Origin: Bernardetia sp. ABR2-2B
GTDB lineage: Bacteria; Bacteroidota; Bacteroidia; Cytophagales; Bernardetiaceae
Length of the DNA: 64,000 nucleotides
Direction of reading: 5' to 3'
NCBI RefSeq assembly: GCF_037126435.1
Contig: NZ_CP147020.1
Location: 5,221,001-5,285,000 of the forward strand
The position numbers and the translations under genes were made by a program. The notes under the pieces were generated by a model. It was given only the letters and a program-made list of their open reading frames with translations, did not search any database and was not told the origin of the DNA. Numbering within the stretch: position 1 is the stretch's first letter; the number at the start of each line of letters is the position of its first letter. Shown here piece after piece: positions 11,007 through 55,619 of the stretch.

Positions 11007-13538
11007 CTACTCTTTTTGTTTTCCTATTGTTCTATCAAAAAGCTGATAAATGCGTTTATACTCGTCTGCCCAACTTGTAGGGTAAACAAAACCATGTCCT
11101 TCAATTGGATAAACGGCAAGTTCCCAGTTTTCTTTTCTTAGTTCAATAAGTCGCTGAGAAAGCCTAACTACGTCTTGAAACTGAACATTTGTATCAAGCA
11201 TTCCATGACAAATAAGTAAATCGCCTTCCAAACCTTCGGCAAAATAAATTGGAGAAGAACGAACATACGCCAAACTATCCTCAACAGGAGTATTCAGAAT
11301 ATTTGCTGTATAAGGATGATTGTAATGCGCCCAATCTGTAACCGAACGAAGGGCTGCACCCGAACGAAAAACTTTAGGTTCTTTAAACATCGCCATCATC
11401 GTCATAAAACCACCATACGAACCACCATAAATTCCGATTCTGTCTTTATCAATATCGTGATTTTTGACTAAATAATCTGCACCAGCTACATAATCTACCA
11501 ATTCTTTATTTCCCATGTGGCGATAAATTGCCGTTCTCCAATCTCTGCCATAGCCTTTGCTACCACGATAATCAATATCAATGACTGTATAGCCTTGCTC
11601 TCTCAAAAGGTTATGAAACATATATTCTCTATAATACGAACTCCAACCATAATGAACATTCTGTAAATATCCTGCCCCATGAACAAACATAACAGCAGCT
11701 TTATTTTTCACATTTGCATCAGGCTCATAAATACGTGCAGGAACTTCTGCTCCGTCTGGCGTTTTGAAAGTAATAATTTTTGGTTCGTACCAAGAATATG
11801 GCTTCATTCCTTCGGTCATAGAATCAGGTTGCTCTATAAGTTTTGCAGGAAATTGTTTTCCACTACTATCTATTGTAATAGTTGTATATTTTGGATACCA
11901 TGAATAGTTTTTAAACTCTTCTGTTGTTGAATTTGTAATTTGTCTTTGTGTAGTTGAATTGGTTTTATTTGCAAAAACGACTAATTCCCAAGGCTTATTT
12001 GAATAAGAATAACGAGCAATCCAATACTTTTCATCAGGCGACAAAACAAAATCTTCATAAACTCCTTTTTTGGAAGTGATTTTCTCCAAACTATTTTTCT
12101 TACCTAGCTTGTATAAATGATACTCATGGAAATTTTCTTTGTTAGCACGAACATAAAAGGTCTCATTATTCTTTGAGAGCCAAACATTAGTTACTTCAAA
12201 ATTTCCGTTGGTAAGTTGATTTGATTTTTTTGTTTTGAAATTATAGGTATAAAGATGCGAAAATCCTGTTTTTTCAGATTGAAAATAAACTGTTTCGTTG
12301 TCTTGCCAACCTAATGTTCCTGTTGAAGCGTGCCAACCACTAATGCCTTCTCCACCTATCCACGCATCATCTTGCTGATAATCTACTAGCTTTAGTTTAT
12401 CATTTTCACTTGTCAAATCCATTGCTACAATCCAACGACTTTTTGAGTCATCTGCACGAACTACCATCACTCCTTTTTTTCCATTTGGCGACCATTTTGT
12501 TTCATGAATCCATAAGTTTCTTGCTGAATTTCTTTTCAGTTCCTTGCCGTATTCTGCATAATAAGCAGGATTTTCCATCATTTTTGGCAAACTAGACAAA
12601 TCAATTTTATCATTTGTTTTTCCATATCTATCATATACATAGAGTTCAAAATTAGCTGTTGCATTTCCTACTTTCGAACGAGCAGGTAAATTTTCTGTAT
12701 AACCAAGCTCATTGATATAATTAGGAACTTCAGTAGATTTTGAAGAATATTCTCCCAAAACATAAATCACAAAACGTCCGTCGTTACTAATCTGAACAGA
12801 AGAAATATATTTTCCATTAAGTGGAATAGCTGTTAGGCGATACGGTTTTGGTTGAGCATTCTTTATAGAATCTTCTGCTTTGTTTATTCTGATAATTTCT
12901 AATAAGTCATTTTGCTGATTATTGAGCCACTTTTCGGCATCATTTAATGATTTTTCGGTCTTTTTATCCGAATCTACGAAAGAAGTAAGTTGCTGTGTTT
13001 GTCCAATTTGCTCTCCTTGTAGCCAAAAATAGAATAAATCATTTCCTTTTTGATAAACAACGGCACTATCATTTCTTGTAAAAGTAGGATTGTTTTCATT
13101 TTCTAATGTGTTGGTAAGTCTTTTTGCACTTCCATTTTGTACGTCTTGTAAATACAAATCACCATCTATCGAAACTACTTTTGAAGTCTTTATTTTATTG
13201 TAATTTTCAAAGTTACTATCATCTCCAAAAACATAATTTTTGGGATTTAGATTAAAATCATTTTCAGCAATTTTTAGTGGAGTGCCAATCGGATTTCCAT
13301 TCGAAATACTTTGTTTGTACCACGTCGGTAAAGGTTCTAAAGATGACTTTTTAGAAAAGTAAATTGCTTTACCATCATACGACCAACGCCCATTTTCTGG
13401 CAATACACCTACGAATTTATCGCCTTGCATAATTTGGTCGATTCTGTCTAAGGCTTGTTCTTGGCTTTTTATTTCTTGAGAAAAAGAAAGTGTAGTTATT
13501 GAAAATAATAAAATGGAGAATAGAAGTTTTAGTTTCAT
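11007..13538 (-). CDS. Exported S9-family (prolyl oligopeptidase/DPP-like) serine peptidase
   Basis: The product has 843 residues from the ATG at 13538, where a signal peptide begins (MKLKLLFSILLFSITTLSFS). The frame opens 51 codons earlier, but that extension is not signal-like. Residues of about 30-600 form a beta-propeller with WD40-like repeats. The C-terminal alpha/beta hydrolase domain has the nucleophile motif GGSYGGFM, the acid in HGMLDTNV and the histidine in IEGHGFVYP. S9 peptidases of this type cleave proline-containing dipeptides or peptides in the periplasm and supply amino acids in proteolytic Bacteroidota. It is divergent from the beta-lactamase-fold gene at 13758. Confidence 0.93.
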   Translation of the reverse strand: MKLKLLFSILLFSITTLSFSQEIKSQEQALDRIDQIMQGDKFVGVLPENGRWSYDGKAIYFSKKSSLEPLPTWYKQSISNGNPIGTPLKIAENDFNLNPKNYVFGDDSNFENYNKIKTSKVVSIDGDLYLQDVQNGSAKRLTNTLENENNPTFTRNDSAVVYQKGNDLFYFWLQGEQIGQTQQLTSFVDSDKKTEKSLNDAEKWLNNQQNDLLEIIRINKAEDSIKNAQPKPYRLTAIPLNGKYISSVQISNDGRFVIYVLGEYSSKSTEVPNYINELGYTENLPARSKVGNATANFELYVYDRYGKTNDKIDLSSLPKMMENPAYYAEYGKELKRNSARNLWIHETKWSPNGKKGVMVVRADDSKSRWIVAMDLTSENDKLKLVDYQQDDAWIGGEGISGWHASTGTLGWQDNETVYFQSEKTGFSHLYTYNFKTKKSNQLTNGNFEVTNVWLSKNNETFYVRANKENFHEYHLYKLGKKNSLEKITSKKGVYEDFVLSPDEKYWIARYSYSNKPWELVVFANKTNSTTQRQITNSTTEEFKNYSWYPKYTTITIDSSGKQFPAKLIEQPDSMTEGMKPYSWYEPKIITFKTPDGAEVPARIYEPDANVKNKAAVMFVHGAGYLQNVHYGWSSYYREYMFHNLLREQGYTVIDIDYRGSKGYGRDWRTAIYRHMGNKELVDYVAGADYLVKNHDIDKDRIGIYGGSYGGFMTMMAMFKEPKVFRSGAALRSVTDWAHYNHPYTANILNTPVEDSLAYVRSSPIYFAEGLEGDLLICHGMLDTNVQFQDVVRLSQRLIELRKENWELAVYPIEGHGFVYPTSWADEYKRIYQLFDRTIGKQKE

Positions 13539-13757
13539 TTGAATTAGTTTTTTGTGTTTGATTCTTTTGGAATGGGAAATTAGTGAAAATTTATTTGGAT
13601 TAATAAAATATCTCAGTTTATTTAGAATGATAGTATTTTTAAAAGTTATAGAGCAAAATAAATAGTTATTCAATAAATTAAAGCAACCCATCGAATTTTA
13701 TACTTGTCTTTGTACTAGTAATTCCTACTTCATTTAAAACTCTTATAAAATAAAACT

Positions 13758-15185
13758 ATGTATAAATCAATTCTTTTGTTAGTCGTCTTTGCTTTTTTTC
13801 AAACTGCTTGTAATAAGAACACAGACTCAAAAAATAGCGATACTACTACTCCAAAAAAAGAAGATATTTATCATTCTCAGATAGATTCATTAATGAAAGT
13901 ATCTTATGAACGTGGCATTTTTAATGGAAATATTTTAGTAGTTAAAAACACTAAAATTCTTTATCAGAATGAATTTGGATATACTGATGCCTCTAAAACA
14001 AACAAACTAAACCAAAATTCTGTATTTAATATTGGTTCTATTGCGAAGGAATTTAATGCTGTTGCTATAATGATGTTAAAGGAACAAGGAAAACTCAGCT
14101 TGGATGATAAATTGTCAAAATTTGATTTAGGCTTACCAAAATGGGCAGAAACGGTTATTGTTCGTCATTTGCTACAATATACAAGTGGATTGCCAAGAAT
14201 AAATTGGAATACTGTCAAAAATGACCAAGATATTTTTACCGATTTGAGAACTCTTGAAAAATTAAATTTTGATGCTGGAACAGATTATTTTTATAACAAT
14301 AATAATGTATTTCTTCAAAGAAGAATTGTGGAAAAAGTATCAGGAATGAGTTTTAATGATTTTGTAAAGAAAAATATTCTTGTTCCAACTGAGATGAATA
14401 ATTCTATTATTGACCCTAATTCTCAAAATCCTCAATTTGTAAATTCGTTTAGTAATGATTTAGTAAACGATGAACCTATGGATATTGAATTTACAGGCTG
14501 GGTTTGTCCTACAATAAATGATATGCAAAAATGGATAGTTAGTTTGCATTCAGGAGAATTGATTAGCAAAGAATCTCTAATTACATTGTCAGAAGCATAT
14601 TCAGAAAATAGTCAGTCAGCTTTGGGGAATGGATTTGTTGAAAATAATGATTTAGTAATTCATCGTCATCATGGTTCATCTTCCAACTATGAAGTATTTA
14701 CTCATTACAACAAAAAAGAGAATTTAATCGTCATTTTGATGACAAATAATAAGAACTCTAAATTACAAGACATTATTCAAGCAGTTGAAAATATTTCAAA
14801 AGGAGAAAGTTTTGAAATTCCTAAAAAATCAATCTATTTGACTATCCGTCAGAAAAGTTATGAAAATGTAGAGGAAGGAATAAAATTATACAATGATTTA
14901 AAAGAGAACGATTTTGAAACCTATAATTTCTCTGATGAAAATGAGCTGAATCAACTAGGCTATAAATTGATTGAGAAAGAACAAATAGAAGATGCTATAA
15001 AAATATTTCAACTACTCATTTCTGAATTTCCAAACTCATCAAATCCCTATGATAGTATGGGAGAAGCCTATTATCTCAATGGAAATACTGATTTGGCTCT
15101 TCTCAACTACAAAAAATCATTAGAATTAAATCCTACTAATTCGAATGCAGAAAAAATGATTGAGAAGATTGAAAGTGAAAAATAG
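13758..15185 (+). CDS. Beta-lactamase-fold serine hydrolase lipoprotein with C-terminal TPRs
   Basis: The 475-residue product has a lipoprotein signal with the lipid-modified cysteine at C18 (FFQTAC). A class C/PBP-like serine hydrolase domain covers about 40-350. The SxxK nucleophile is S94-I-A-K97, a YNN segment at about residue 181 takes the YxN position, and HHGSSS replaces the usual HxGxxxG. Residues of about 400-470 are tetratricopeptide repeats. Such proteins are usually esterases or D-amino-peptidases rather than true beta-lactamases; TPRs suggest a protein partner. It is convergent with the helicase gene across a repeat-filled gap. Confidence 0.88.
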   Translation: MYKSILLLVVFAFFQTACNKNTDSKNSDTTTPKKEDIYHSQIDSLMKVSYERGIFNGNILVVKNTKILYQNEFGYTDASKTNKLNQNSVFNIGSIAKEFNAVAIMMLKEQGKLSLDDKLSKFDLGLPKWAETVIVRHLLQYTSGLPRINWNTVKNDQDIFTDLRTLEKLNFDAGTDYFYNNNNVFLQRRIVEKVSGMSFNDFVKKNILVPTEMNNSIIDPNSQNPQFVNSFSNDLVNDEPMDIEFTGWVCPTINDMQKWIVSLHSGELISKESLITLSEAYSENSQSALGNGFVENNDLVIHRHHGSSSNYEVFTHYNKKENLIVILMTNNKNSKLQDIIQAVENISKGESFEIPKKSIYLTIRQKSYENVEEGIKLYNDLKENDFETYNFSDENELNQLGYKLIEKEQIEDAIKIFQLLISEFPNSSNPYDSMGEAYYLNGNTDLALLNYKKSLELNPTNSNAEKMIEKIESEK

Positions 15186-15211
15186 AGAGAATAGAATAGC
15201 TCTTTCAACAA

Positions 15212-15353
15212 GTCGGTGTGCGTTCGTTTTAGCTTCGTTGAGGGTTTCACCGTTCTCAAAAACAAACGAAAGGCTTCCTCAGAAGCATGATTTAAACTAT
15301 ATCACGCTTCTGAGGAAGTGTCCTGTTCAGTTCTAAGGAACTGAACACACGAC
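15212..15353. repeat. Nested inverted repeats, first block
   Basis: Several inverted arms sit within each other: GTCGGTGTG against CACACGAC at the ends, TTCGTTT against AAACGAA, and a perfect 13-bp pair CTTCCTCAGAAGC (15274-15286) and GCTTCTGAGGAAG (15306-15318). A separate hairpin GTTCAGTTC/GAACTGAAC occupies 15325-15346. It may terminate the upstream gene. Confidence 0.85.
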
Positions 15354-15378
15354 CTATGATTTATTTAAGTAGTTGTGG

Positions 15379-15526
15379 TGTACAAATTTGTTAATCTATT
15401 TGACTAGTACAATTTTTGAAAACATAGTTTTTTTGTATTCCTCCCCTCCTTCGGAGGGGCTGGGGAGGTCAAAAAGATGGTAAAAACTAACAAAATTGTA
15501 CTAGCTAATTATTTAATTTTTGTACA
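15379..15526. repeat. Nested inverted repeats, second block with GC-rich hairpin
   Basis: Outer arms TGTACAAA (15379-15386) and TTTGTACA (15519-15526) enclose a perfect 13-bp pair, CTAGTACAATTTT (15404-15416) and AAAATTGTACTAG (15492-15504). In the centre is a strongly GC-rich hairpin, CCTCCCCTCC then TTCGGAGGGGCTGGGGAGG, at 15440-15468, unlike the AT-rich surroundings. Such C-rich hairpins recur in other bacterial genomes as REP-like elements. Confidence 0.85.
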
Positions 15527-15558
15527 GACCACAGACTAGGAAGTTGATACACTTTACT

Positions 15559-15582
15559 GTTGTCTGGTGTCTTACCAACGAC
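15559..15582 (-). repeat. Copy of the palindromic intergenic module
   Basis: On the minus strand this reads GTCGTTGGTAAGACACCAGA then CAAC, close to the module at 3636 and 55562. It abuts the stop codon of the helicase gene, so it may form part of its terminator. Confidence 0.75.
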
Positions 15583-15583
15583 T

Positions 15584-16918
15584 TTAAACCACCGAAACTC
15601 TAACCTTTTTCTTCTTCAATTTCACATTATTTACTTTTGGTAAAAGACTATTTAATGTAGATTTTTTCACAGAAACAAAAGCACAATCATTTTTGAGTTC
15701 GATGATTCCTAATTGGTCTTTTTCAATGTTTCCTTGTTTGAAAAATAATCCTGCTATGTCACCTTTCGAAATTTTATCTTTTCTTCCTCCAGAAATATAT
15801 AAAGTAAGCCATTCAGAAGGATTGGGAAGTTGCTGTTCTGTTAGACTTTGATTCGGTAAATTCAATTCTTCAATAAAATCAGGAACATCTTCATACTCGT
15901 AGTGCAAAACATACGCTGTTCCTTTGCTGTTCATACGAGCCGTTCTTCCGTTTCGGTGCGTAAATTCTTCATTTCTTTGAGGTAAATGATAATGAATAAT
16001 AAAATTGAGTTCTGGAACATCAATTCCTCGTGCTGCCAAATCAGTTGCTAACAAAATTTTATACGTTCCATTTCTAAATTTTATCAACGCTCGTTCTCTG
16101 TCCACTTGTTCCATTCCACCAAAGAAAGCACCATGAGAAATATTATTTTCCGTCAAAAAATTACTTATCCTTTCAATAGAATCTTTATAATTACAAAAAA
16201 TAATTCCGTTTTCATTTCCAATATGAGAAAGCAATTCTAAAAGTGTTTCTAGTTTGTCTTTGCTTGGAGAAGTAACTAATTTAATTTTTAAATCACTACT
16301 CTTTCTATTTCCTCCTTTTCCATCTCTGAGGTAATCAATTGTAAGAGGATTTTTTAGTCCTACAAAACTTGGAATTTCTACGCCTTGGGTGGCAGAAGTG
16401 AGAATTTTCTTACTTATCTGTGGCAAAATATTCAAAATTTCTTTCATCTCGCCTTCAAATCCAATTTCTAAAGATTTATCAAACTCATCTAAAACAAGCG
16501 TTTTTATAAATTTTGTTTCGAAGGCTTCTCTTCTCAAATGGTCGGCTACTCTTCCCATTGTTCCTATCAAAACGGCTGGTCGGTGTTTTATTTCTAATCT
16601 GTCTTTTGACCCTGCACGTCCTCCATAAACAGCATTTACTTTAAAGCCAGTTCCCATTTCACGCATTACTTGTTCTATCTGAATGGCAAGTTCTCTTGAT
16701 GGAACAACAATAAGAGTCTGTATTTCTTCTAAATTTCTATCTAAATTCTCAATAATGGGAAGTAAAAAAGCAATTGTTTTTCCTGTTCCTGTTGGAGAAA
16801 GTAGAATAACTTCATCAGAAGAATGAATAGCAAGTTTTGCTTCTTCTTGCATTTCATTGAGTTTCTCTATTCCTAATTTTGATAAAATAGCTTTTTGATT
16901 TTTGATAGAATTTGACAT
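15584..16918 (-). CDS. DEAD-box-type RNA helicase with DEFD motif and DbpA-like C-terminal domain
   Basis: This 444-residue superfamily 2 RNA helicase has the usual motifs: Walker A SPTGTGKT (41-48), VPSRELA, motif III SAT (175-177), the ATDLAARGID segment, and HRNGRTAR for motif VI. Motif II is DEFD (144-147) instead of DEAD; the aspartate-glutamate pair for magnesium and hydrolysis is kept. Residues of about 378-444 (SKGDIAGLFF...VKLKKKKVRVSVV) match the DbpA RNA-binding domain, which in E. coli targets 23S rRNA hairpin 92, so a role in large-subunit ribosome assembly is likely. It is divergent from pdxH. Confidence 0.93.
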   Translation of the reverse strand: MSNSIKNQKAILSKLGIEKLNEMQEEAKLAIHSSDEVILLSPTGTGKTIAFLLPIIENLDRNLEEIQTLIVVPSRELAIQIEQVMREMGTGFKVNAVYGGRAGSKDRLEIKHRPAVLIGTMGRVADHLRREAFETKFIKTLVLDEFDKSLEIGFEGEMKEILNILPQISKKILTSATQGVEIPSFVGLKNPLTIDYLRDGKGGNRKSSDLKIKLVTSPSKDKLETLLELLSHIGNENGIIFCNYKDSIERISNFLTENNISHGAFFGGMEQVDRERALIKFRNGTYKILLATDLAARGIDVPELNFIIHYHLPQRNEEFTHRNGRTARMNSKGTAYVLHYEYEDVPDFIEELNLPNQSLTEQQLPNPSEWLTLYISGGRKDKISKGDIAGLFFKQGNIEKDQLGIIELKNDCAFVSVKKSTLNSLLPKVNNVKLKKKKVRVSVV

Positions 16919-17011
16919 AAAATTAGATAAAGATGAATACTATTTTGAGATTTGTATTACTTTTGGAAGTAACCACACAAAGTTACGAATAAGTATTTAA
17001 TATATTTATCT

Positions 17012-17593
17012 ATGAAAAACTCACACACACCTATAGAATTATTTAAAAAATGGTTTAGTGAAGAAGAAAAATTATCAAAATTAAGTGTTCCTACAGCAGT
17101 TTGTTTGTCTACAATTGGTTTAGATGGATTTCCAAATTCACGATTTGTTTCTCTTAAAGAAATAGTGAAGGACAGTTTTATCATAACTACTCCACTTGAT
17201 TCTAGGAAAGGAGCAGAAATAGAAAATAATAATAAAGTTGCTCTGACTTTTTGGTGGACAGAAACTCAAAGACAAATTAGAATACAAGGAATTGCAACCA
17301 AAATAGATAAAGAATTAGCTCAAAAATATTTTGAAGAACGAAATTTAGAATCTCAAATTGTGTCTTTAATTTGCCAACAGGGAAAAGAAATTGATGACAT
17401 TAAGATTCTTGAAAAAGAAATTATTCAAATGAGTTTAACAAACCCCAAAATTGAAATGCCAAAAAACTGGGGTGGTTATTCCATTGAACCAATCAGAATA
17501 GAGTTTATGGAATTTAGAAAGACACGTTTTCATGATAGAAAACTTTATGAAATGGAAAATAATAAGTGGACTTTAAAACAACTTCAACCTTAA
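17012..17593 (+). CDS. pdxH: Pyridoxamine 5'-phosphate oxidase
   Basis: PdxH is an FMN enzyme oxidising pyridoxamine or pyridoxine 5'-phosphate to pyridoxal 5'-phosphate. The family features are present: the FMN-binding NSRFVSLKEI and SRKGAEIENN segments, the FWWTETQRQIRIQG strand, the SQI motif, and the C-terminal WGGYSIEPIRIEF and FHDRKLYE, ending KQLQP. At 193 residues it is slightly short because the N-terminal arm is brief. The TPR gene starts 11 bp later, so the two probably form an operon. Confidence 0.95.
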   Translation: MKNSHTPIELFKKWFSEEEKLSKLSVPTAVCLSTIGLDGFPNSRFVSLKEIVKDSFIITTPLDSRKGAEIENNNKVALTFWWTETQRQIRIQGIATKIDKELAQKYFEERNLESQIVSLICQQGKEIDDIKILEKEIIQMSLTNPKIEMPKNWGGYSIEPIRIEFMEFRKTRFHDRKLYEMENNKWTLKQLQP

Positions 17594-17603
17594 AAAAATA
17601 AAA

Positions 17604-18995
17604 ATGAAACTATTCGGATTTGAATTTAGCAATACATCAAAAAAACAAGAATCTAGCAAAAAAGAGAATCAAAAAGTCCCTTTTGAGCAAAAAGGAGGAA
17701 AGTTTCCAGTCATTACAGAAGCAGATAAAGAATGGGTAGAAGAAAATTTTAACTGGTTGATGGGAGCTTGTGGATTGCCCAAAGAAGGAAGTAAAAATAT
17801 TCTGTTTTCTAAAGAATTTTTTCCTGAGTCATTTAGTTCTGAAAGTCTTGAGATTCCAAACCTAATTGCAGACTTCTCTGATTTGTTAAATTTAGAGGTT
17901 GCAATAATTGACTTTGAGCTACAGAAAGATATTACAGATATTTATGGAATGCCTTATGCCCACGACGATATGGGTAGCTCTCAAATTGAAATCACAGAAA
18001 ATGGATATATACTTCATATCCCAAATGAGATTGTCAAGCGTCCTAATCAACTTCTTTTTAGTGTTTTAAAAGGATTTATAAAAATTCGTTTGCTAGAAAG
18101 TCATTTGAGTTATGATACAGGACATGAAGATTATGATGATTTGTTTATTCATTTGGTAGGAATTTATTTTGGGTTTGGAGTTATTTTTCTTCAAAATCTC
18201 ATTGGAGGAGGATATTCAACAGATGGAATATGGGAAACAAAATGGAGCTACACTTCAATAATGCCAAAGGAAGTAATGACCTACTCGTTGGCTCTTTACT
18301 GTGGTTTGATAGAGGAAGAAAATTTTGAGTGGAAAGAAAATCTACATCCATCTATCAAGTTGCAATTTGAAAAAGCAATGGAGTTTTTGGCAAAATATCC
18401 TTCTTCTTTGTTCAATCCAACAGAGCTAAAAGCGATGCGTTTGATTGAAAAATCGTATCAAGAGTACGAAAAAAATAAATTTGAATTTTCTATTTCGATT
18501 TCAAAGGAATCTCTAACACTAACTAATGATTCGATTACACAAATAGACATTTATAATAATATTGGTTATTTTCAGCTGAGAAATGGGAATTTACAAGAGA
18601 GTATATCTAGTTTTGAGAAAGCTCTTGAAATAGAGCCCACCTTTGGAGTAGCGAGTGATAATTTGGCGTATGTTTATGTTAAATTGGGGCAGTTGGAAAA
18701 AGCAAAGCATTATCTTGAAGAAGCCATAGCAACAGAAAATAATGAGTTAGCTTATCATTATAGAAATGTAGCTTTGTATTATGCTGCAAAAGGAAAAAAC
18801 GAAGAAGCAGAAGAGTATTTTGATATGGCTTTTAGAGAAGCAGAGTTGCCAGTAGATTTATTAGAGTTCGATTATGCTCTTTTTCTATTTAATCAAAATA
18901 AAGAAGAAGAAGCAATGAACTATCTGAAACTAGCTATTGAGAAAAATGAGCCAGAAGCTATAAATAAAATGAAAGACCTTAATAATCTTTCATAA
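17604..18995 (+). CDS. TPR protein with degenerate peptidase-like N-terminal domain
   Basis: This 463-residue cytoplasmic protein has TPRs at about 308-455; repeats such as IGYFQLRNGNLQESISSFEK and LEIEPTFG are clear. The N-terminal half is not assigned with certainty. One stretch (FGVIFLQN after a DYDDLFIHLVGIYFGFG helix) resembles the aspartate-containing helix found in some HExxH metallopeptidase-like TPR proteins, but no HExxH is present where it would be expected (LFSVLKGFIKI). It lies 11 bp after pdxH. Confidence 0.7.
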   Translation: MKLFGFEFSNTSKKQESSKKENQKVPFEQKGGKFPVITEADKEWVEENFNWLMGACGLPKEGSKNILFSKEFFPESFSSESLEIPNLIADFSDLLNLEVAIIDFELQKDITDIYGMPYAHDDMGSSQIEITENGYILHIPNEIVKRPNQLLFSVLKGFIKIRLLESHLSYDTGHEDYDDLFIHLVGIYFGFGVIFLQNLIGGGYSTDGIWETKWSYTSIMPKEVMTYSLALYCGLIEEENFEWKENLHPSIKLQFEKAMEFLAKYPSSLFNPTELKAMRLIEKSYQEYEKNKFEFSISISKESLTLTNDSITQIDIYNNIGYFQLRNGNLQESISSFEKALEIEPTFGVASDNLAYVYVKLGQLEKAKHYLEEAIATENNELAYHYRNVALYYAAKGKNEEAEEYFDMAFREAELPVDLLEFDYALFLFNQNKEEEAMNYLKLAIEKNEPEAINKMKDLNNLS

Positions 18996-55040: not shown

Positions 55041-55619
55041 TTAAAACATAATTGTTTGTATGCGTTCATCATTCATAAAGTTCAAAAATTCTTTTCCCTT
55101 TTTCTGATGAGAAAGGTAAAGCATATTTCGCTGGTCGTCAAATAAATCCATCAAAATCATATTCTTTATAGAAATGGATTCTTTTTCATCTGAACTTTCT
55201 TTTTCCACAACTCCGTACACCCAAACTACATCTCCTTCAAACTCTAGCCCAATATAATTTATTTCTTTTTTTTGAGAATTAATTTTTAAATCTACTACCT
55301 TTTTTAGATAATCATAAATATATCTATCAATATGCTTATGTTGTGTTTTAGTAGAAAGATTAGGTTTTTGTTTCTGAAAAGCAATTTCATAATTCTTTCG
55401 AAGAGCTTTTTCCAAATCATCTATAAAAATTTTATGAGAGATTTGAATTTCTGTTTTGTCTTCTTTTACTCTGAAATCCATTTCCGTAATGCTCAAATGC
55501 ATAGCATGTTTTGGAATGAATGAAAAAAGACAAAAAGTTAGTAATAAAATAGTGTATAAATGTCGTTGGTGAGGACACCAAAAACGGTTATTTATTGTTG
55601 AATATTTATTTTTTGACAT
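55041..55619 (-). CDS. DUF6702 family exported protein
   Basis: The 192-residue product matches DUF6702: HLSITEMDF, then QISHKIFIDDLEKALRKNYE and VVDLKINSQKKEINYIGLEF. A signal peptide core lies at about 20-36 (HLYTILLLTFCLFSFIP). The first 20 residues (MSKNKYSTINNRFWCPHQR) are encoded partly by the palindromic module at 55562, so the original start may have been changed by the repeat. No ATG lies between it and residue 40. Function unknown; exported. Confidence 0.8.
   Translation of the reverse strand: MSKNKYSTINNRFWCPHQRHLYTILLLTFCLFSFIPKHAMHLSITEMDFRVKEDKTEIQISHKIFIDDLEKALRKNYEIAFQKQKPNLSTKTQHKHIDRYIYDYLKKVVDLKINSQKKEINYIGLEFEGDVVWVYGVVEKESSDEKESISIKNMILMDLFDDQRNMLYLSHQKKGKEFLNFMNDERIQTIMF
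55562..55587 (+). repeat. Copy of the palindromic module inside the DUF6702 start region
   Basis: GTCGTTGGTGAGGACACCAA then AAACGG matches the family consensus almost fully, with the hairpin TTGGTG/CACCAA. It encodes part of the N-terminal extension of the DUF6702 protein. Confidence 0.85.

Follow-up and report, generated by a model that had tools for sequence, protein, structure and literature searches.

The gap between two convergent genes that is described here lies in a 64,000-nucleotide stretch of Bernardetia sp. ABR2-2B (referred to as 'the window' throughout, and drawn from a 5.38 Mb genome, G000), and is probably a 'graveyard' of small non-autonomous mobile elements. Three modules can be distinguished within it. 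Module A consists of four REP-like hairpins whose sequence also adjoins one RAYT gene elsewhere in G000. In sister species the same cluster forms the interior of MITEs of approximately 197 bp, whose ends are of the ISL3 type and whose movement presumably depends on an ISL3-family transposase; it is found as well between three other types of ends, and in places where no end can be recognised. The window copy of A most likely came as, or from, an ISL3-ended MITE, of which the right end and most of the left were subsequently lost. Module B may be regarded as a second MITE-like element, which carries a CCTCCCC intrastrand-triplex block, and module C as a hairpin of another dispersed family. REPs, RAYTs and MITEs are each known kinds of element; the cassette of module A appears to be common to several unrelated kinds of miniature transposon in this group of marine bacteria. 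The coordinates of all features are collected in Table 1.

Table 1. Features of the gap and of related RAYT loci (positions in the window, unless a genome and contig are given).
Feature	Position	Strand	Description and basis
Left gene	13758-15185	+	hydrolase-like, named by eye
Gap	15186-15583		between convergent genes; 398 nt
Right gene	15584-16918	-	helicase-like, named by eye; last codon at 15584
Possible degraded left T1 (ISL3-type) end	15198-15211	+	AGCTCTTTCAACAA vs GGCTCTTCCGACAA, 11/14 by eye; alignment with G002 copies
Module A core, four-hairpin cassette	15216-15350, perhaps from 15198	+	copies, covariance model, covariation
Hairpin h1, long form	15223-15266	+	~24 extra nt on one side of loop; alignment of copies
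Hairpin h2	15272-15287	+	alignment, covariation
Perfect 13-bp arms, first pair	15274-15286 / 15306-15318
Hairpin h2'	15305-15320	+	nearly reverse complement of h2; alignment, covariation
Hairpin h3	15324-15347	+	TGTTCAGTTC / GAACTGAACA; perfect 10-bp pair, 15324-15333 / 15338-15347
Outer pair of module B, 29 nt	15365-15393 / 15488-15516		72% complementary
Module B, MITE-like	15366-15515	+	inverted ends; each border carries TA (by eye)
Module B inner arm, left	15404-15416	+	perfect 13 bp
Intrastrand-triplex motif in B	15443-15468	+	CCCCTCC-TTC-GGAGGGG-CT-GGGGAGG
Module B inner arm, right	15492-15504	+	perfect 13 bp
Module C, imperfect palindromic hairpin at helicase stop	15559-15582	+	copies elsewhere
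RAYT adjoining A hairpins (L152 = L172, one place)	G000:C1:887938-888495
Related RAYT adjoining A hairpins (L173)	G002:C1:4236447-4237001

As single-stranded DNA, the gap folds far more stably than its own shuffled sequence: the plus strand reaches -69.9 kcal/mol (shuffles -36.7, sd 4.1, z -8.0) and the minus strand -72.9 kcal/mol (z -9.9), and for neither strand did any of 100 shuffles fold as well. This agrees with an earlier, sequence-only reading of the same DNA, which had described a hairpin-dense gap with two perfect 13-bp arm pairs (both now located) and a GC-rich block of the CCTCCCC type (present at 15440-15468). That reading had also described two nested blocks, and had viewed them as insertions into one another. 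The blocks do exist, but their nesting does not, as A and B are neighbours that follow each other side by side, and the GC-rich block alone is nested, inside B. Since that block is found inside both known copies of B (in the window and at a second locus, L085), it looks like a part of B rather than a fresh insertion; any order of arrival of the modules would be a matter of conjecture.

The same convergent gene pair is found in two other genomes of the genus (G002 and G006), where the gene ends are 91-100% identical to those of the window and the intergenic DNA is unrelated to the window gap. Thus, the base-for-base conservation that the sequence-only reading had named as the mark of a single functional structure is absent from the two genomes that share the gene pair. 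No strict empty site was found, as G002 and G006 hold other DNA in the gap; in the 2.8-3.4 kb beside the helicase gene of G001, G003, G004 and G005, tblastn gave no match to the upstream gene. The hydrolase-helicase gap of G002 and G006 (L135, L136) is approximately 700 bp long and 94% identical between the two genomes, and the gap of G002 contains an open frame of 210 codons.

These comparisons bear on an alternative explanation, in which the gap serves the two genes as a bidirectional transcription terminator, or stabilises their mRNA ends, and has been kept for its hairpins. The convergent genes and the strong folding of both strands speak in its favour, as do one terminator-like site on the minus strand and a T run that follows h2' in the G002 copies of module A. 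However, neither G002 nor G006 has conserved the gap; the same hairpins are found at many other places, many of them with terminal inverted repeats; the window copy carries no T run after h2'; and a single terminator-like site amounts to little when shuffles contain 0.3 on average (sd 0.6). Retention of the gap for such a function is thus unlikely, and its present role would be, at most, that of a terminator as a by-product of the mobile elements within it.

The copies of module A share a well-defined structure. Because the loops of h1 and h2 read CTCA, versus TGAG in h2' and h3, the entire cassette is itself an inverted repeat. The window copy scores 101.2 bits (E 2.6e-15) against a covariance model of the cassette, being itself among the model's 32 source sequences. 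In the 32-copy alignment, 48 of 895 small-hairpin cells have changed on both sides, and the covariation score of the small hairpins (0.231) lies above that of shuffled alignments (0.118, with none of 500 as high) and of versions slid along the alignment (at most 0.081), with the caveat that these shuffles retain relatedness among the copies and that related sequences can exceed such shuffles. An alternative long stem, formed by h2 and h2', has a covariation score (0.179 versus 0.104 shuffled) that is below that of the small hairpins. No GTAG or GTGG tetranucleotide was seen by eye at the foot of the hairpins in the alignment of cassette copies.

A BLAST search with positions 15186-15350 found the cassette in six of the seven genomes of the genus, the exception being G003, whereas 52 genomes from outside the genus gave no match; the best copy, in G002, is 92% identical over 136 bases. 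With the covariance model, when both strands were counted and the best 98 candidates at most were scored in each genome, there were at least 17 matching rows in G000, 17 in G001, 90 in G002, 42 in G004, 37 in G005 and 22 in G006 (each a lower bound), and no match in G003. Among 32 genomes outside the genus, the model found matches in G009 (at least two), G019 (at least three) and G037 (at least 17). A locus in the last of these, which belongs to another family of the order (L198, G037:C1:2720528-2720637), displays the hairpin order h1-h2-loop-h2'-h3 in a different sequence.

Genes of the Y1_Tnp type are present in all seven genomes of the genus, and 60 Y1 loci were searched for the hairpins of module A. 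Three of these loci correspond to two places, a RAYT gene in G000 (L152/L172) and a related gene in G002 (L173), which are 78% identical to each other; the other 57 loci represent 42 distinct stretches (44 in all) and contain no strict hairpin unit. As the scan for strict units is insensitive (it finds none in the cassette copies L066 and L257), the test was repeated with BLAST on all 60 loci (19 cassette queries, E <= 1e-3) and, on 51 of them, with the covariance model as well, and the two methods agreed, each matching L152/L172 and L173 only. At L173, strict units are located on both sides of the gene; at L172 they are confined to one side, and the opposite side gives only a weak match to the model (E 0.011). 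The similarity between L172 and L173 extends over the gene and the adjacent hairpins and does not include the outer flanks, indicating that the two RAYT loci occupy different surroundings. Hairpins that are found beside a RAYT and are also dispersed in the genome were therefore observed at two of 44 distinct Y1 stretches, and the RAYT link rests on these two related loci, which represent a single RAYT pair. The RAYT protein (approximately 183 aa) contains NHIH and YIHNNP, with WE in place of WQ, and scores 23.8 bits for Y1_Tnp (cut-off 23). Other palindromes accompany several of the Y1_Tnp genes: for instance, four of the CGACAGTTTCCAACTGTCG type are found near a different RAYT at L156 (G000:C1:3463500-3465700), and a palindrome of this type also adjoins a cassette copy in G002 (L222).

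The cassette copies of G002 display terminal inverted repeats at both ends, and many of them are elements of 196-197 bp in which the cassette forms the interior between ends of a type designated T1 (GGCTCTTCCGAC). Perfect 8-bp target duplications are found in six of 13 T1 rows, and a further four match at seven of eight positions; permuted flanks produced a mean of 0.45 perfect duplications, and a maximum of four in 1000 permutations. (Twelve of the 13 rows are from G002 or G006. Among the 13, L073 is represented by two readings that overlap, and L036 and L072 are an orthologous pair.) The ISL3 family makes 8-bp duplications, and in G005 T1 ends flank a 342-aa ISL3 transposase (PF01610, E 2.2e-62), an autonomous partner that is found in that genome only; a profile search for PF01610 gave no match in G002, the genome in which T1 MITEs are most numerous, nor in G000.

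Three further types of ends surround the same cassette. T4 ends (TACACTGTTTCAAAAG) form three end pairs of approximately 1.2 kb in G001, one of which (L247) encodes a DDE_3 (PF13358) and a helix-turn-helix protein, and which we take to be an IS630-like IS. Four of six T4 target duplications are perfect, a weak result beside a permuted mean of 1.0 and maximum of four. At another locus in G001 (L248, G001:C1:2300600-2302500), a T4 MITE that contains the cassette lies next to a T4 IS, at a distance of five bases. For the remaining two types, T2 (TTATCACGGTT) and T3 (GCATGTTCATAAAA), no full-length IS was identified; the T2 pattern is found in all seven genomes among the matches listed, and its control is noisy (at least ten matches in G001, versus 16 in the control).

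Because the end motifs were derived post hoc from the same copies, the frequencies of these end types are descriptive and provide no independent test: 44 of 65 cassette copies have at least one of the four types, and 21, including the window copy, have none. One end type is found on both sides in 25 of the 65 (T1 in 12, T4 in eight, T2 in three and T3 in two) and one recognised end only in 18; one copy, L240, was scored T4/T2 and appears by eye to be a T4 element between T2 ends. The 65 copies are a sample, drawn from cassette-seeded searches that were capped in each genome, and were obtained when 110 merged places were reduced by sequence. The window copy is one of them, as are L172, which is a RAYT flank, and the orthologous L036 and L072.

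Cassette and ends are also found apart from each other. T1 elements are known with no such hairpin (L277, 61 bp, and L275, 90 bp), with one (L276, 104 bp), with three as judged by eye (L262, 164 bp, where two were detected in the unit scan), and also with four (197 bp); T2 and T4 elements without the cassette, or with other hairpins, are represented by L267, L271, L279 and L278. The 61-bp and one-hairpin forms of T1 differ by eye at a CACC repeat, so that an insertion there is indistinguishable from a deletion.

These observations can be weighed against the view that a single ancestral MITE had the cassette as its ordinary interior, with the other end types arising from decay or chance matches. 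That the copies themselves supplied the end motifs, and that 21 of the 65 have no recognised end, agrees with such a view. However, T1 and T4 ends each belong to a full-length IS of their own, and the transposase domains of the two are unrelated (PF01610 and PF13358), elements with T1, T2 or T4 ends that lack the cassette exist (L277, L275, L267 and L279), and shuffled flanks produced an end match in nine of 130 cases, all of which renders a single ancestral MITE decidedly improbable. That module A is instead a family of structured non-coding RNA genes, as might be suggested by its multi-branched fold and its compensatory changes (although related sequences can beat the shuffles used), is very unlikely, given that an Rfam search of 13000-18000 returned nothing at gathering score, that many copies per genome are found at differing sites, that the small hairpins covary better than the long stem, that a single hairpin is found alone inside the T1 MITE L276, that the hairpins adjoin a RAYT gene and that G003 has no match.

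If module A is taken as a mobile cassette, its window copy would be, judging from its sequence, at best a relic. Terminal inverted repeats at both ends, as found in the G002 copies, are not present: there is no recognisable right end and no target duplication, the possible left end fails the T1 scan (at most two mismatches in 12), and approximately 20 bases are missing between AGCTCTTTCAACAA and the core. In G000, no 17-base T1 end was found within two mismatches.

Module B has ends that are complementary at 21 of 29 positions, which was equalled by two of 1000 shuffles. The 154 bases at 15365-15518 have a 90% copy elsewhere, in G004 (L085); no other near-full-length copy was found in 11 genomes, when the best 40 candidates at most were considered in each. 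The right end of B resembles a sequence that is repeated at ten places in G003, where seven of the eight repeats with known distance are within approximately 60 bases of a contig end, as expected of a repeat that breaks the assembly. A 72-aa ORF fragment by a matching G003 end was considered as the transposase of module B, and was rejected in the absence of a Pfam match (a single relative of 27 residues is found in a Bernardetia MAG); its assignment to IS630 was a guess only and was likewise dropped.

For module C, a 25-base match (96%) is found in G006 (L098), and related hairpins are found at L224, L251 and position 55566 of the window. The hairpin of this type at 55562-55587 of the window reads GTCGTTGGTGAGGACACCAAAAACGG. 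A loose TTGG...CCAA pattern is present at five of the 60 Y1 loci (L119, L126, L166, L170 and L190), in none of which could the module C sequence be seen by eye. The sequence-only reading had placed a 'module copy' at the helicase stop, and a hairpin does lie there, while its identity with the copy intended is uncertain. The broader interpretation offered at that time was largely right. An accretion of small mobile and REP-like elements is supported: other copies of both A and B exist in the genus, the hairpins of A are linked to a RAYT gene, and the gap differs in G002 and G006. The idea of mutual insertion is not supported.

A further possibility, which is put forward tentatively, is that RAYT cassettes act as interchangeable cargo of unrelated DDE-transposon MITEs, and that the hairpin array of one RAYT reached at least four MITE families of one bacterial genus, either by entering them or by spreading among them through end exchange. 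The inverted symmetry of the array might permit strand-switching during replication to copy one MITE end to the other side, whereupon the cassette would change its transposase; the enzyme that brought the cluster into MITEs can itself only be conjectured. Three signs point toward such a process: a chimeric element (L265) in which, by eye, one hairpin has a T1 end on its left and a T3-like end on its right; a copy (L044/L213) with a T1 right end and no recognised left end (the left being weakly T4-like by eye); and the orthologous elements L036 (G006) and L072 (G002), which share the same flanks but differ, by eye, in the orientation of the nine bases that separate h2 from h2', this reverse-complemented centre being a sign of palindrome-centre inversion. 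At a separate locus in G006 (L142, G006:C44:338800-341100, at approximately 460-1860), a T1 MITE is interrupted by DNA with a 306-aa ORF, which gives a weak UPF0236 match (23.6 bits, under the cut-off of 24.3); the insert is probably another IS.

The origin of MITE interiors and the means by which REP-like hairpins spread are still debated. The cassette has now been observed without recognised ends, beside its RAYT gene and within four end types, two of which are found on ISs with unrelated transposases; with contexts so varied, and with T1 elements that carry zero, one, three or four hairpins, capture and end exchange become testable by strain comparison. In the accessible portion of the open-access literature, no description was found of a RAYT hairpin cassette inside several MITE families. 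The window gap itself is probably genome debris, and illustrates the need for caution before a hairpin-dense gap is read as a single regulatory structure.

Several known systems resemble parts of this assembly. Like ISL3-related bacterial MITEs, the T1 elements share their terminal inverted repeats with an ISL3 IS of the genus, are 60-200 bp long and display 8-bp duplications; unlike them, they have as interior a hairpin cassette that is common to elements of other end types. Pneumococcal BOX elements (PMC3049150) are, like the T1 elements, small repeats interspersed in the genome. BOX elements are modular, and their internal units vary in number, as do the hairpins of the T1 elements; they keep one pair of end modules, whereas here one interior is found with at least four end types. 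Within the available text on TnpAREP proteins, subclass 2.6 (RAYT group 5) is characterized by the motifs NH[LIV]H, WQ and YIH[QN]NP, and its Bacteroidetes genes are described as bordered by atypical secondary structures that recur at other places in the genome (PMC6006769). The RAYT of approximately 183 aa described here, with NHIH, YIHNNP and dispersed atypical hairpins, is similar to that subclass as there presented, and differs from it by WE versus WQ and by hairpins that are also found inside MITEs with DDE-transposon ends (PMC6006769). With REP, BIME and REPIN sequences, as outlined in portions of two accounts, the cassette shares short palindromic units, an inverted arrangement and one linked RAYT; it departs from them in that no GTAG/GTGG foot is seen by eye and that four hairpins with different stems share a loop (PMC3733652, PMC6006769).

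The triplex block of module B has its own relatives. G000 contains eight more matches of 37-44 bases to it, several of them with a second, inverted motif nearby; among the Y1 loci searched, no RAYT partner of the CCTCCCC block was found. The species Flexibacter litoralis belongs to Bernardetia. As described in the accessible part of one survey, it has almost only A/T triplexes, and the triplex motif of E. coli was found to have no link to transposons (PMC4666352). The same partial source describes the Y-R-R intrastrand-triplex architecture (PMC4666352), to which the motif in module B conforms by inspection at seven of seven triplets (a Y block, its complementary R block and a mirror R block). 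In this order of pyrimidine, complementary purine and mirror purine blocks, the motif resembles, from sequence alone, the BoxC/PIT/TM triplex motifs; unlike the E. coli consensus, as given in the available text (PMC4666352), it is shorter and is located inside a MITE-like element.
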